Assembly (NCBI GenBank): GCA_024998565.1 | Contig: JACOEM010000006.1 | Span: 1 to 64,000, forward strand | Reading direction: 5' to 3' | Source of the DNA: Nitrospira sp. | GTDB lineage: Bacteria; Nitrospirota; Nitrospiria; Nitrospirales; Nitrospiraceae | DNA length: 64,000 nucleotides | Shown here: positions 99-10,784 of the stretch, piece after piece | How the letters are laid out: every line of letters starts with the position of its first letter | How positions within the stretch are numbered: the first letter of the stretch is position 1 | Translations under genes and position numbers: made by a program | The notes under the pieces: model-generated | The model's input: the letters and a program-made list of their open reading frames with translations, nothing else | Database searches by the model: none | Told to the model about the DNA's origin: nothing

Positions 99-728
99 CT
101 AGGGAGTTGGATCACCATTTGGCACGAATCCATAGGGCAGGAGGATTTCGTCGTCGCCTGAAGATTGAGGGCGGCGCAGGATGGACAAAGAGAGTGCCTC
201 GTGTTCAGCCAGGCGGTCGGCGTCGCGTCGAAGGGTGGCTGAGAGCCGGACAATGGGCACGGCGGTTTGGACGGCACAAGCACCATGGACTATCCCGTCC
301 GATTCGCCGGGAATGCCCATCGTGCGGCATGTGATGGGTCTGTGGGAGTAGATACTGCAAGTTCCGTCGGCCTCCAGGGCGGGGCAGGGAAGGTGGGCGA
401 ATCGTTCGGCCATCTCATCGACGGTGTCATCTGCCCACTCGTCAAGGCTCGGTGTCGATTTCAACCTTGGGTAGGCCGTTTCCATAGCGGTGATCTGGGT
501 TCTGGCCCGCGTGACGATGGCATGCGCGAGAGCGGGCGGTAATTCATCAATGCCCCGTTGTATTTCGAGGGCGTCGAGGCGTGTAATTGGAAAGATGCCG
601 GTACAGCATTCGCAGCAGCCGCGCCCGCAGGGGATCTGCCCCAGGAGTGAGGCTCGTGCGCGCTGGAACCAGTCTTCGGCTTGCTGGAAGAGGGGTAAGG
701 GGTGAGGGGAGGACGCCGTGGTCCCCAT
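99..728 (-). CDS. YkgJ-family cysteine-cluster protein
   Basis: A 209-residue protein whose N-terminal half carries the cluster CGRGCCECC (residues 34-42). Near residues 110-140 come further cysteines in CPALEADGTC and HRPITCRTMG. This is the usual layout of the YkgJ (zinc- or iron-chelating) family, in which these Cys are thought to bind metal. The biochemical role of the family is not settled. There is no signal peptide, so it is probably cytoplasmic. The start ATG at 728 follows a GAGGAA-like ribosome site and lies 5 bases after the stop of the upstream minus-strand gene, so the two are probably co-transcribed. Confidence 0.75.
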   Translation of the reverse strand: MGTTASSPHPLPLFQQAEDWFQRARASLLGQIPCGRGCCECCTGIFPITRLDALEIQRGIDELPPALAHAIVTRARTQITAMETAYPRLKSTPSLDEWADDTVDEMAERFAHLPCPALEADGTCSIYSHRPITCRTMGIPGESDGIVHGACAVQTAVPIVRLSATLRRDADRLAEHEALSLSILRRPQSSGDDEILLPYGFVPNGDPTP

Positions 729-6717: not shown

Positions 6718-7470
6718 ATGGCCTCAGTTCTCCTCAACAAACGCATTGAGTTCTGCGCGTCCCACCGGTACCACAAGCCGGAGTGGGATGCTGCGAAGAA
6801 CCGCGCCACGTTCGGCGCCTGTAATAACGATCCCGGGCATGGCCATAACTACATGCTGGAAGTGACGGTGGCGGGAGAGGTCGATCAGCGGACCGGCATG
6901 GTCGTGAACCTCTTTGATTTGAAACGCGTGTTGTTGCAAGTGTTGGAGGAGTTCGATCACAAGCACCTCAATCTCGACCTGCCCTATTTTGAGCGCCAAA
7001 TTCCAACCTCCGAAAACGTCGCGCGTGTCCTGTGGGACAAGCTTCAAGCGCAGCCGGATATCGGTACCCTCCAACGGCTGTCGTTGTACGAGGATGAAGA
7101 TCTCTGTGCCGACCTCACGGCAGAGGCCGGGCTGGAGGTGGCCTCGGTGACGAGGAGGTATTCGTTTACCGCCGTGCATGACGGCCATCGTGGACATACC
7201 TGGGATCTGTTCGTGTCGGTGCATGGACCGATCGATCGTGAGACCGGCATGGTTACGGATATTGTTGCGTTGGATCACTTGCTGAAAGAACGCGTACTGG
7301 TCCCGTTCGACGGGCGGGATCTGCGCATGGTGTTGGCGACGCCCTCAGTCACTGGCGAATATCTGGCCAAGGCGGTGTGGGATCGTATCGTTTCGGCCAT
7401 TCCAGCTGGAACGCTTCAACTCGTCAAGCTCGTCCAAACTCGCGATCTCTTCTACGAATACGCCGGCTGA
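6718..7470 (+). CDS. Tandem 6-pyruvoyl-tetrahydropterin synthase / QueD-like protein
   Basis: A 250-residue protein made of two PTPS/QueD domains. Domain 1 (about 1-130) has the zinc-binding pattern: His in CASHRYH and HGHNY, then the EFDHKHLN segment and a TSENVARVLW active-site region, so it could be active. Domain 2 (about 140-250) keeps the fold (YSFTAVHDGHRGHTWDLFV, PFDGRDLRMVLATPSVTGEYLAKAVW) but lacks the clean DHxxLN and the TxE motif. It is probably a structural or regulatory partner. The substrate may be a pterin or the queuosine precursor. No other pterin gene adjoins it. Confidence 0.82.
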   Translation: MASVLLNKRIEFCASHRYHKPEWDAAKNRATFGACNNDPGHGHNYMLEVTVAGEVDQRTGMVVNLFDLKRVLLQVLEEFDHKHLNLDLPYFERQIPTSENVARVLWDKLQAQPDIGTLQRLSLYEDEDLCADLTAEAGLEVASVTRRYSFTAVHDGHRGHTWDLFVSVHGPIDRETGMVTDIVALDHLLKERVLVPFDGRDLRMVLATPSVTGEYLAKAVWDRIVSAIPAGTLQLVKLVQTRDLFYEYAG

Positions 7471-7742
7471 TTCATTCGTCTTCTCTCGACTCCCCGCAAC
7501 GTGGCTGAGCGTTGTGCCTGCAAGGGCCAACCAGCCGAGGCACGACAGAAGCTGCACAAAATTCCTCCGTTCGGCAGTTCTTGCCGGGTGGTCTGCGTCG
7601 AGTGCTCCTCGCATTCGCACATTCACTAGGTTTCAAGCCGTTCTTCATCCCGGTATCTGTGGCCCGAAATTTGTATATAAAGTTGTATCTATGGATGGGT
7701 GCTGGGTCGTTCTGCTCGGGTCGATCGGGAGGTACTGACGTT

Positions 7743-8987
7743 ATGATGTCCATCTGGGAATTCTTCGGCCAAGACGTGGCGCTCTTCGGTCAACTCCACA
7801 GTCCCATGCTGAGTTGGCTCGGCTCGGTCGGATTGGTCGCGCTGTTTCTGTGGCATGCGGGTCGGCTGACGGCGGCCATCTCCAGCGTGCAGGGGTGCTA
7901 CACCCGCGTATGGCCGACCTTGACGAGTCTTACTGCCGGCCGCAAGAGTCTGCAATCAGAGTGGCTGACGGTCCCCAGCTTGAACGATGGGAAGAAACCG
8001 GCTAATCGGTCCGGCAGCCAATCGGAGCGGGTCGATTTGGATGATCTTCACACGCTCGACAAGGCCATGCGCCGGGAGCCTCGCCTTGAACAGGCCTGGC
8101 TGCATTTTCGCAAGACCTTTATTGTGGAGCGTACGGCTTGGTTCATCGAGCCGAAAGTGTTTGCGACCCGCACGGCGGCGGAATTTTTCCCTCGTGATCT
8201 GTTGAGTAACCGATTGAATCTCGCTTTTTACCATCAGTTTCCGTCGCTGATTACAGGAGGGGGACTGCTGCTCACGTTTCTTGCGATTCTCATCGGCTTA
8301 AGCAAGCTTCATGCGGATGGATCGCATATCGTGGGTATTCAAGGGCTGATCAACGGATTGGCCGGGAAATTTTTGACGTCGATTGTCGGATTGCTCTGCG
8401 CCAACCTCTTTGTGCTGCTGGAGAAGTCTGCCTTGCATCGGTTGGGCACCACTCAGCAGCAGTTTGTTGCCATGGTCGATGAACTGTTCCCGCGCAGAAC
8501 CATGGAGCAGATGTTGGAGAACTTCACCCCCGGGGCGGGGGCATCACACACGCCCGCCGCAGTGGGTGCGGTGCCCGTTGATCTTGGCGATCGCCTCGTG
8601 GGGACTCTCAGTGATCGCTTGAGTCCCACCGTGACGGCGCTGAGGGAGGCCGTGGAGGTGTTGAGCAGGCGGGAAACGGGTGGACGGTTCGCTGCACCGG
8701 ATCGTTTGGCGGAGGAGTTATCGCGGGTGATACAGCAGACGATGGCGGCTCCGATTCAGGAATTGAACCAGGCCATTCACACGCTTGCCCGCTCGGTCGA
8801 GGAACTCAAGCGCGACCCCAAAATGGAGCCAGAAGCGGAACCGAGCGAGAGTGAGTTTGAATCGACGTTCTTTGAGGACACGCTGCCGTCAGAATTGGCA
8901 GAGAAGCCCAGCCCTGATGACAGCATGAGCGGGTTGCGGTGGTTTGCGAATTGGCGTCAGGGCGCCTCAATGAAGGGAGCGGCCTGA
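7743..8987 (+). CDS. ZorA-like MotA/ExbB-family motor protein
   Basis: A 414-residue inner-membrane protein. TM1 is near residues 20-42, a cytoplasmic segment follows, then TM2/TM3 in FPSLITGGGLLLTFLAILIGL and GKFLTSIVGLLCANLFVLLE. A long Pro/Glu-rich, partly coiled-coil tail follows them. This plan, especially LTG-G-LLTF and FLTSIVGL, resembles ZorA, the proton-driven stator of Zorya defence, more than flagellar MotA. The start at 7743 follows GGGAGG; longer versions lack support. It is one base from the zorB-like gene. No ZorC, ZorD or ZorE gene is nearby, so an anti-phage role is unproven; ExbB/TolQ-like work is the alternative. Confidence 0.7.
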   Translation: MMSIWEFFGQDVALFGQLHSPMLSWLGSVGLVALFLWHAGRLTAAISSVQGCYTRVWPTLTSLTAGRKSLQSEWLTVPSLNDGKKPANRSGSQSERVDLDDLHTLDKAMRREPRLEQAWLHFRKTFIVERTAWFIEPKVFATRTAAEFFPRDLLSNRLNLAFYHQFPSLITGGGLLLTFLAILIGLSKLHADGSHIVGIQGLINGLAGKFLTSIVGLLCANLFVLLEKSALHRLGTTQQQFVAMVDELFPRRTMEQMLENFTPGAGASHTPAAVGAVPVDLGDRLVGTLSDRLSPTVTALREAVEVLSRRETGGRFAAPDRLAEELSRVIQQTMAAPIQELNQAIHTLARSVEELKRDPKMEPEAEPSESEFESTFFEDTLPSELAEKPSPDDSMSGLRWFANWRQGASMKGAA

Positions 8988-8988
8988 T

Positions 8989-9741
8989 ATGCGCACCAAC
9001 TCCTCGCCGGATTCGCAGGAACAGTCTTCGACCCTCACCATCGGCATCACGGATTTGATGACGTCACTCGCCGTCATTTTTATCCTCCTGTTCAGCGCCT
9101 ATGTCACCAAAATCTCCGAAACGGAATCACAGGCAAAGATGCCGGTCCCCACTTCGGCGCCGGAGCGGAAGGCGGCCCGGGCGACGACGGATGATATCAA
9201 GGGGCTGCTGCGCGACCATTTCCAACGCTTCGACCTTTCCTTGGATGCCGATCCCAGTGACCCTAATGTGGTGCGGATCGTCGTGCCGGAAGCGTTGTTA
9301 AACTTTGAGTTCGGCAAGGGCGCACTCTCGTCGGCGGCGGACCGATTCCTTGCGGATGCGATGCCGACCTATGCGACGTTGCTCTGCGGTGCTATGCGGG
9401 ATCAAATCGATTCGCTGGTGATTGAAGGGCATACCGATGATCGCGGTACGGACATCTACAACCTGAAGTTGAGCCAGGAGCGTTCGTTGAATGTGATGGT
9501 GAAAGGGCTGGAGGTCATCCGGGACTCGGCGCCCTGGGCCTATCGCTGCTTCCACGAAAAGACGTCTGCCAGTGGGCGAGGTCGGCAAGATCTCGTCATG
9601 GATGAGTCGCGTGGCCTTGATCGAGATAAGAGCCGGCGGGTGGTATTTAAAATCCGTCTACGGCCCACGGCTCAGCAGAGTGAGATGAAACAAGCCTTGC
9701 GGACGATTGAAGAGCCGAACTTCAGCTCCCGCCTGTTCTAA
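8989..9741 (+). CDS. ZorB-like MotB/OmpA-family protein
   Basis: A 250-residue stator partner. The single TM helix (about residues 20-40, GITDLMTSLAVIFILLFSAY) contains D22, the expected proton-carrying aspartate. The periplasmic part is an OmpA-like peptidoglycan-binding domain, shown by VIEGHTDDRGTDIYNLKLSQERS and later DKSRRVVFKI. Together with the preceding ZorA-like protein it should form an ion-driven membrane motor anchored to the cell wall. The stop overlaps by four bases the stop of the convergent minus-strand gene. Confidence 0.75.
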   Translation: MRTNSSPDSQEQSSTLTIGITDLMTSLAVIFILLFSAYVTKISETESQAKMPVPTSAPERKAARATTDDIKGLLRDHFQRFDLSLDADPSDPNVVRIVVPEALLNFEFGKGALSSAADRFLADAMPTYATLLCGAMRDQIDSLVIEGHTDDRGTDIYNLKLSQERSLNVMVKGLEVIRDSAPWAYRCFHEKTSASGRGRQDLVMDESRGLDRDKSRRVVFKIRLRPTAQQSEMKQALRTIEEPNFSSRLF

Positions 9742-10610
9742 CGCCGTTCCGAGGACGGCCCGTCCTGCGCGCAACGAAATCCGACATCATTCCGTCGCGC
9801 ATCTGGCGCATATCCGGCGCGATTTGACGACCTGATGGCCTTGGAATCGTTGTTCCAGGCGCCTCCGCGCAATGCCCGAAGTGGCCCCGTGGAAGGTCCT
9901 TTCGGATTGTCTCGTGCGCTGAATTGGTAGTAGGTCGGATCATACCAGTCGGCGACCCATTCCCAGAGATTCCCCGCCAGGTCATACACCCCCTCCGGGG
10001 TTTTGCCCAGTTCGAACCGTCCAACATTGCTCAGGCTGTCGTATCCTCGCCATCTGGTCTCACCTGCATTCGCATGTCCTTTGGTCGGGTGCGTACTTCC
10101 CCATGGGTAGATCCGTCCCTCTGTGCCGCGAGCTGCGATCTCCCACTCCGCCTCTGTCGGCAATCGTTTCCCCGCCCATCGGCAATAGTCACGCGCATCG
10201 TACCAATTGACGCCGACCACAGGCCTCTTGTCGTGAGCGCCGGCGGCCGCCTCATTCCACTTGAACGGTGCGTCCGGTCTCTGGGAGGCCAGGAACTCGG
10301 CATAATGAGAGACGGTGGTTTCGTACACATCAAGATAAAAGGTGTTGACCGAAACGCGATGGACCGGCTGTTCGTCCTCCTGACCGCGGTCGCTGCCCAT
10401 GGCAAATTCCCCGGCAGGGACGAGCGCCATTGGCGCACCACGTGGCGTGCCGGTGAACTTGGCGCGAAGTTCGACGGAGGCGGGGTTTGAAGGGTTGCCT
10501 ACGATTGAATGTGACGGGTGTGGCGAGATGTCCTTCGCTTCAGCAGCCCCTGCGAATGGGAGACAAGAAAGTAGCGCGATGGCACAGGTGAACGGTACGA
10601 ATGGTCGCAT
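9738..10610 (-). CDS. SUMF1/FGE-like family protein, secreted
   Basis: A 290-residue protein with an N-terminal signal peptide (MRPFVPFTCAIALLSCLPFAGAAEA) and one FGE-sulfatase domain: FAMGSDRGQEDEQPVHRV, RLPTEAEWEIAARG, YPWG, DLAGNLWEWVADW and RGGAWNND...NDVGFRCA. In true formylglycine-generating enzymes a Cys pair in the RSSNR region makes the active site. Here those positions are Ser, so oxidase activity is doubtful. Many homologues act as binding or chaperone-like modules in the periplasm. The start at 10610 is chosen to give a normal signal peptide. No sulfatase is nearby. Confidence 0.8.
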   Translation of the reverse strand: MRPFVPFTCAIALLSCLPFAGAAEAKDISPHPSHSIVGNPSNPASVELRAKFTGTPRGAPMALVPAGEFAMGSDRGQEDEQPVHRVSVNTFYLDVYETTVSHYAEFLASQRPDAPFKWNEAAAGAHDKRPVVGVNWYDARDYCRWAGKRLPTEAEWEIAARGTEGRIYPWGSTHPTKGHANAGETRWRGYDSLSNVGRFELGKTPEGVYDLAGNLWEWVADWYDPTYYQFSARDNPKGPSTGPLRALRGGAWNNDSKAIRSSNRAGYAPDARRNDVGFRCAQDGPSSERR

Positions 10611-10784
10611 TGTTCCGTGGATGATCGATCGCGAGACGGTCGGTAGTTCTGGTCTCACCCCGACATTGTATCCCGTTCGTGCGAAAAAGTGTGAGGGAGT
10701 ACTGTGTCGGGAGGGCCCTTAGCGACGGATAAATTGTCGCAGGGCTTCAGTGGATGCGGTGAGGGCTATCGGAGATGGCGGCTG

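Follow-up and report, generated by a model that had tools for sequence, protein, structure and literature searches.

What does the motor of a defence system do where the rest of the system is missing? The cited Zorya literature gives ZorA and ZorB the part of sensor-motor in a defence system. A 64,000-nucleotide stretch of Nitrospira DNA (the window) encodes such a pair, and no effector gene adjoins it. Here, a stand-alone, peptidoglycan-anchored ion motor derived from ZorAB, probably with an envelope function, is the most likely reading, held with moderate confidence. The name nZorAB denotes this stand-alone two-gene ZorAB-derived module of Nitrospira and related Nitrospirales. Its features, and the gene that follows it, are these:

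7743..8987, plus strand: nZorA, a ZorA-family motor subunit of 414 aa (open reading frame with ATG start; profile and fold matches)
8274..8276, plus strand: nZorA T178, ion-path polar residue; invariant, aligned with a transmembrane Thr of E. coli ZorA (8qyd)
8379..8381, plus strand: nZorA S213, ion-path polar residue; invariant, aligned with a transmembrane Ser of E. coli ZorA (8qyd)
8529..8984, plus strand: short tail of nZorA, aa 263-414; helices at 282-313 and 319-357 (both of low confidence), with an acidic linker and a conserved C-terminus
8989..9741, plus strand: nZorB, a ZorB-family subunit of 250 aa; a single transmembrane helix plus, in the periplasm, an OmpA-like peptidoglycan-binding domain
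9052..9054, plus strand: nZorB D22, ion-carrying aspartate of the transmembrane helix; invariant, aligned with the transmembrane aspartate of E. coli ZorB
9268..9660, plus strand: peptidoglycan-binding domain of nZorB; H148, T149, D150, L159, R165, R216 and R217 invariant, and the fold matches
9738-10658, minus strand: secreted protein of the SUMF1/FGE fold (Pfam, 9e-57)

Both genes are present at 7743-9741, where the original prediction had placed a ZorA/ZorB-like motor pair, and the profile search that it proposed identifies them as such. nZorA matches the PADLOC ZorA profiles (4e-21) and the NCBIfam ZorA models (8e-15, under the curated cut-offs of those models); nZorB matches PADLOC ZorB (2e-41) and Pfam OmpA (4e-7). 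Sequence profiles from 18 (ZorA) and 14 (ZorB) relatives were run against all solved structures. The top matches were ZorA chains for the first (8qyy, 8qyk, 8qyd, 8vvn, and 8vvi) and ZorB chains for the second (8vvi, 8qyd, and 8vvn). AlphaFold models reached a mean pLDDT of 66 for ZorA, a modest confidence, and 73 for ZorB. Fold searches with these models returned only ZorA chains at E < 1e-3 for nZorA, and ZorB chains at ranks 1, 2, 4, 5, and 6 for nZorB (8vvi, 8vvn, 8qyd). Profile, fold, and tree agree in placing the pair within the ZorA/ZorB family rather than with MotAB, TolQR, or ExbBD.

The two genes are separated by one base, forming a tight operon. An alternative zorA start, an in-frame TTG at 7512, would lengthen the open reading frame; the start is taken at 7743 because conservation begins with the MMS encoded there. 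The gap to the upstream PTPS gene is about 270 bases. That gene, QueD-like and on the plus strand at 6718-7470, has twice the usual length, and its single protein product matches PTPS twice.

Three transmembrane helices are predicted for nZorA, at about aa 22-45, 163-190, and 211-235. A β element in the cytoplasmic domain of ZorA is a Zorya feature (PMC12505986), and two short predicted strands in nZorA (aa 126-129 and 138-141; model pLDDT 66) are a candidate for it. D22 of nZorB lies in a DLM motif present in all 26 nZorB sequences and in the Zorya references. The MotB-like protein does carry the aspartate-bearing transmembrane helix and the peptidoglycan-binding domain first ascribed to it. 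By motif position, its invariant set corresponds to the ZorB I residues needed for wall binding and defence (PMC11890865). From the retained ion-path and wall-binding residues, motor and wall-binding activity is predicted for nZorAB.

The long tail first attributed to the MotA-like protein depends on the comparison: it exceeds that of MotA or ExbB but falls short of that of a type I ZorA. With comparable starts, nZorA measures about 400-441 aa, type I ZorA 607-773 aa, and type II ZorA 363-550 aa; one shorter nZorA, of 316 aa, lies near a contig end. The C-terminus, GLRWFANWRQGxSMKG, is conserved within the genus.

The effector genes are missing from the neighbourhood, as was originally claimed. 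A Pfam EH_Signature search for ZorC in the genus was silent, as were its controls, and a ZorC protein search with a positive control was used instead. It found homologues in only 4 of 295 genomes of the phylum, none of them in the window's genus. Across 18 genomes, near-full-model ZorD matches occurred only in G277 and G262, those in the others covering the helicase part; no ZorE homologue was found in the 18, although the positive controls (W01, W02) matched. ZorC and ZorD are absent from the compared nZorAB neighbourhoods. Complete type I ZorABCD systems were seen in two Nitrospirota genomes (L091 and L092), one of them from the window's family.

The pair is present in all 29 Nitrospira genomes, at 74-95% identity (one copy is cut by a contig end), and in every match in the genus the reading frames are intact, with no internal stops. 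At the loci compared within the genus, synteny is fixed as far as contigs reach: homologues of Fur, rubrerythrin, PTPS, Trx, Prx, TypA, PBP1A, and HscA. Profile sampling covered the Nitrospirota, and an all-species scan was made with close-relative patterns. The ZorA profile matches 69 of the 295 phylum genomes; subtracting the complete ZorABCD systems of G277 and G262 leaves 67 with nZorAB. By group within this sample, the pair is found in 16/16 genomes of the window's genus, 37/40 of genus g6, and 8/10 of g21. Because some genomes of the family lack it, the pair is not essential across the family. No genome in the sample has two ZorA matches; thus nZorAB and such a type I system were not seen together.

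Other genera hold the bare pair elsewhere: at a proS-gspE locus; next to an rsmA homologue; upstream of homologues of sucCD; and at other sites. The proS-gspE-PilZ-DEAD slot is filled in L082 and L057, and also in L089, where the DEAD gene is not nearby; in L124-L126, L129, and L130 the slot is empty and its neighbours are still there. The unit that is moved or lost is the bare pair. The scan of relatives for a conserved third gene found none that travels with it: the pair alone is common to all nZorAB loci, with genes called by a longest-ORF heuristic that may miss small ones. This supports one option of the original prediction, the solitary motor, as does the presence of the pair throughout the genus.

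Individual neighbours were considered as partners. A PilZ gene lies beside the pair in several relatives; it was rejected because the proS-gspE locus retains it even in genomes where that locus lacks the pair. In several relatives the PTPS-zorA interval holds an oppositely oriented gene for a small transmembrane coiled-coil protein, and in several a CBS-domain gene (L036:8843-9803, and the same region in L039, L040, L043, L044, L045, and L049). As partners encoded upstream of zorA, both fail: they occur in part of the genus only and are absent from the window. A link to nitrite oxidation, sought through a type II DMSO reductase model, was uninformative because related genomes without the pair match the model as well.

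Mobile elements gave little. Phage records yielded no convincing homologue, with one weak partial match, and viral contigs none by two patterns; plasmid homologues are distant only, at ~26% identity. A Prevotella plasmid (L099:1444-8383) carries a ZorAB-like pair near FtsK-like genes, with no recognised Zorya effector annotated, and a Burkholderia multivorans replicon (L102:3683-5690) carries genes for a 435-aa ZorA-like and a 230-aa ZorB-like protein.

Where did the pair come from? A tree of the ZorA core plus ZorB (39 taxa, rooted on a Burkholderia pair, and built without a confirmed type III reference) places the 26 nZorAB pairs in one clade (UFBoot 95). This clade is sister to the ZorABCD systems L091 and L092 (joint clade, 95), with Nostoc type I outside (100), so that nZorAB is nested within type I Zorya. 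The simpler reading of this position is a type I ancestor whose descendants lost ZorC and ZorD, and from it we infer the direction of change: loss of both genes and shortening of the tail. In the same tree, genus g6 is split into two groups at different loci; across genera, inheritance is thus not strictly vertical.

The pair is under purifying selection. By a simple Nei-Gojobori estimate from five close genomes, dN/dS is 0.149 for ZorA and 0.158 for ZorB, against 0.000-0.243 for neighbouring genes; the TypA and Prx neighbours, at 0.004-0.012, lie below the pair. Within ZorA, values rise from the core (0.09) through the tail (0.20) to the C-terminus (0.30), the tail changing faster.

Core inheritance, the lack of an adjacent effector, and the retained motor and wall residues together make a stand-alone envelope motor the most likely role. 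That the motor keeps its place among housekeeping genes, with none of the genes for attack on phage DNA, suggests that it is retained for a job of its own. This leads to a working model of nZorAB as a Zorya-derived ion motor that now belongs to the core genome in Nitrospira and in related Nitrospirales. Five ZorA subunits would surround two ZorB subunits in the inner membrane, a presumed 5:2 arrangement, and the OmpA-like domains of ZorB would bind peptidoglycan. Ions passing ZorB D22 and the ring of ZorA T178 and S213 would turn the ZorA pentamer, with its short cytoplasmic tail, against a ZorB that is tethered to the wall. The probable output is an envelope or cell-wall function, or a wall-state signal passed through the tail; phage defence by a nuclease is less likely. 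It is quite possible, if a little short of probable, that a Zorya motor was domesticated and now serves as a stand-alone housekeeping machine, inherited for the most part vertically.

Might nZorAB nevertheless be a defence module that works without ZorC, ZorD, or ZorE? ZorAB would then sense phage damage to the wall and either depolarise the membrane itself or activate an unlinked, unrecognised effector. Several observations are in keeping with this proposal: the motor and peptidoglycan-binding residues are all kept; the nearest kin are genuine type I Zorya systems; from genus to genus, the pair occupies different loci; and the ZorA tail evolves faster than the core. However, ZorAB alone is reported not to suffice for Zorya defence (PMC8565338), and the ZorA tail, which matters for that defence (PMC11890865), is short in nZorA. 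Core inheritance in housekeeping synteny is also unlike that of defence genes, and none of the ten proteins flanking the pair matches any defence model. A defence role is unlikely, although it fares best among the alternatives to a stand-alone envelope motor.

An energiser of the TolQR, ExbBD, or MotAB kind, with only a superficial likeness to ZorAB, is highly improbable and largely refuted. Its case consists of a weak structural similarity to TolQ, the next hit in the nZorA fold search (E ~0.02), and of the OmpA-like domain of nZorB, a type common to MotB and Pal. Against these, a Pfam MotA_ExbB search with nZorA gave no match; the ZorA profile retrieved no MotA, ExbB, or TolQ chain among its solved-structure matches, and the best such matches of the two proteins by sequence are ZorA and ZorB; and the five PF01618 proteins encoded elsewhere in the same genome do not include nZorA. 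The original prediction had named two findings that would count against a Zorya-like pair. One, a better score to ExbB, TolQ, or MotA, was not obtained; the other, a steady non-defence context in relatives, was.

Still less probable is a new Zorya type with the SUMF1-like protein as its third component, as had been suggested. Its gene adjoins zorB throughout the window's genus, but the two are convergent, overlapping tail to tail by 4 bases (9738-9741), and in other genera it does not lie beside the pair. Furthermore, the RGGAW...FRC region of the protein is without the catalytic Cys pair of formylglycine-generating enzymes, and so it is probably no working enzyme of that kind. Least probable of all is decay from a former Zorya system, the orphan remnant of the original prediction: failure to find ZorC, ZorE, or a full-length ZorD and the short tail would fit decay, but presence in 29/29 genomes, intact frames, and purifying selection refute it.

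A stand-alone envelope motor would have consequences beyond this locus. If the reading is true, nZorAB adds another physiological class to the peptidoglycan-anchored ion motors, next to Mot, Tol, Exb, Agl, and Gld. In a lineage whose core genome keeps the motor alone, and whose sister group has complete systems, ZorAB action without effectors can be tested directly, and the lineage offers a test case for the domestication of defence parts into cell physiology. ZorAB profile matches without an effector should not be counted as Zorya defence. No published account of such a pair is apparent in the accessible part of the literature that names both Zorya and Nitrospira.

How does nZorAB compare with known systems? 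It shares with type I Zorya the ZorA core fold and sequence, the transmembrane aspartate and OmpA-like domain of ZorB, and the tight zorA-zorB order. Type I differs in having ZorC (EH signature) and a full ZorD (SNF2/Mrr); its longer ZorA is encoded by a sporadic gene, whereas that for nZorA is a core gene of its genus. Type II (ZorA, ZorB, ZorE) has the ZorAB core as well, and some of its ZorA proteins are short (363 aa in L108), but it carries the ZorE HNH nuclease and occupies a separate part of the tree. Type III (ZorA, ZorB, ZorF, ZorG) likewise combines a ZorAB pair with neighbours other than ZorC, ZorD, or ZorE; by comparison of neighbouring genes alone, neither ZorF (DUF3348) nor ZorG (DUF2894) was seen adjacent to nZorAB. 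MotAB, TolQR, and ExbBD belong to the same superfamily and presumably share the 5:2 ion-driven mechanism, but the Pfam model of that group passes over nZorA, fold and sequence searches clearly favour ZorA, and the genome that encodes nZorAB has separate MotA, TolQ, and ExbB homologues.
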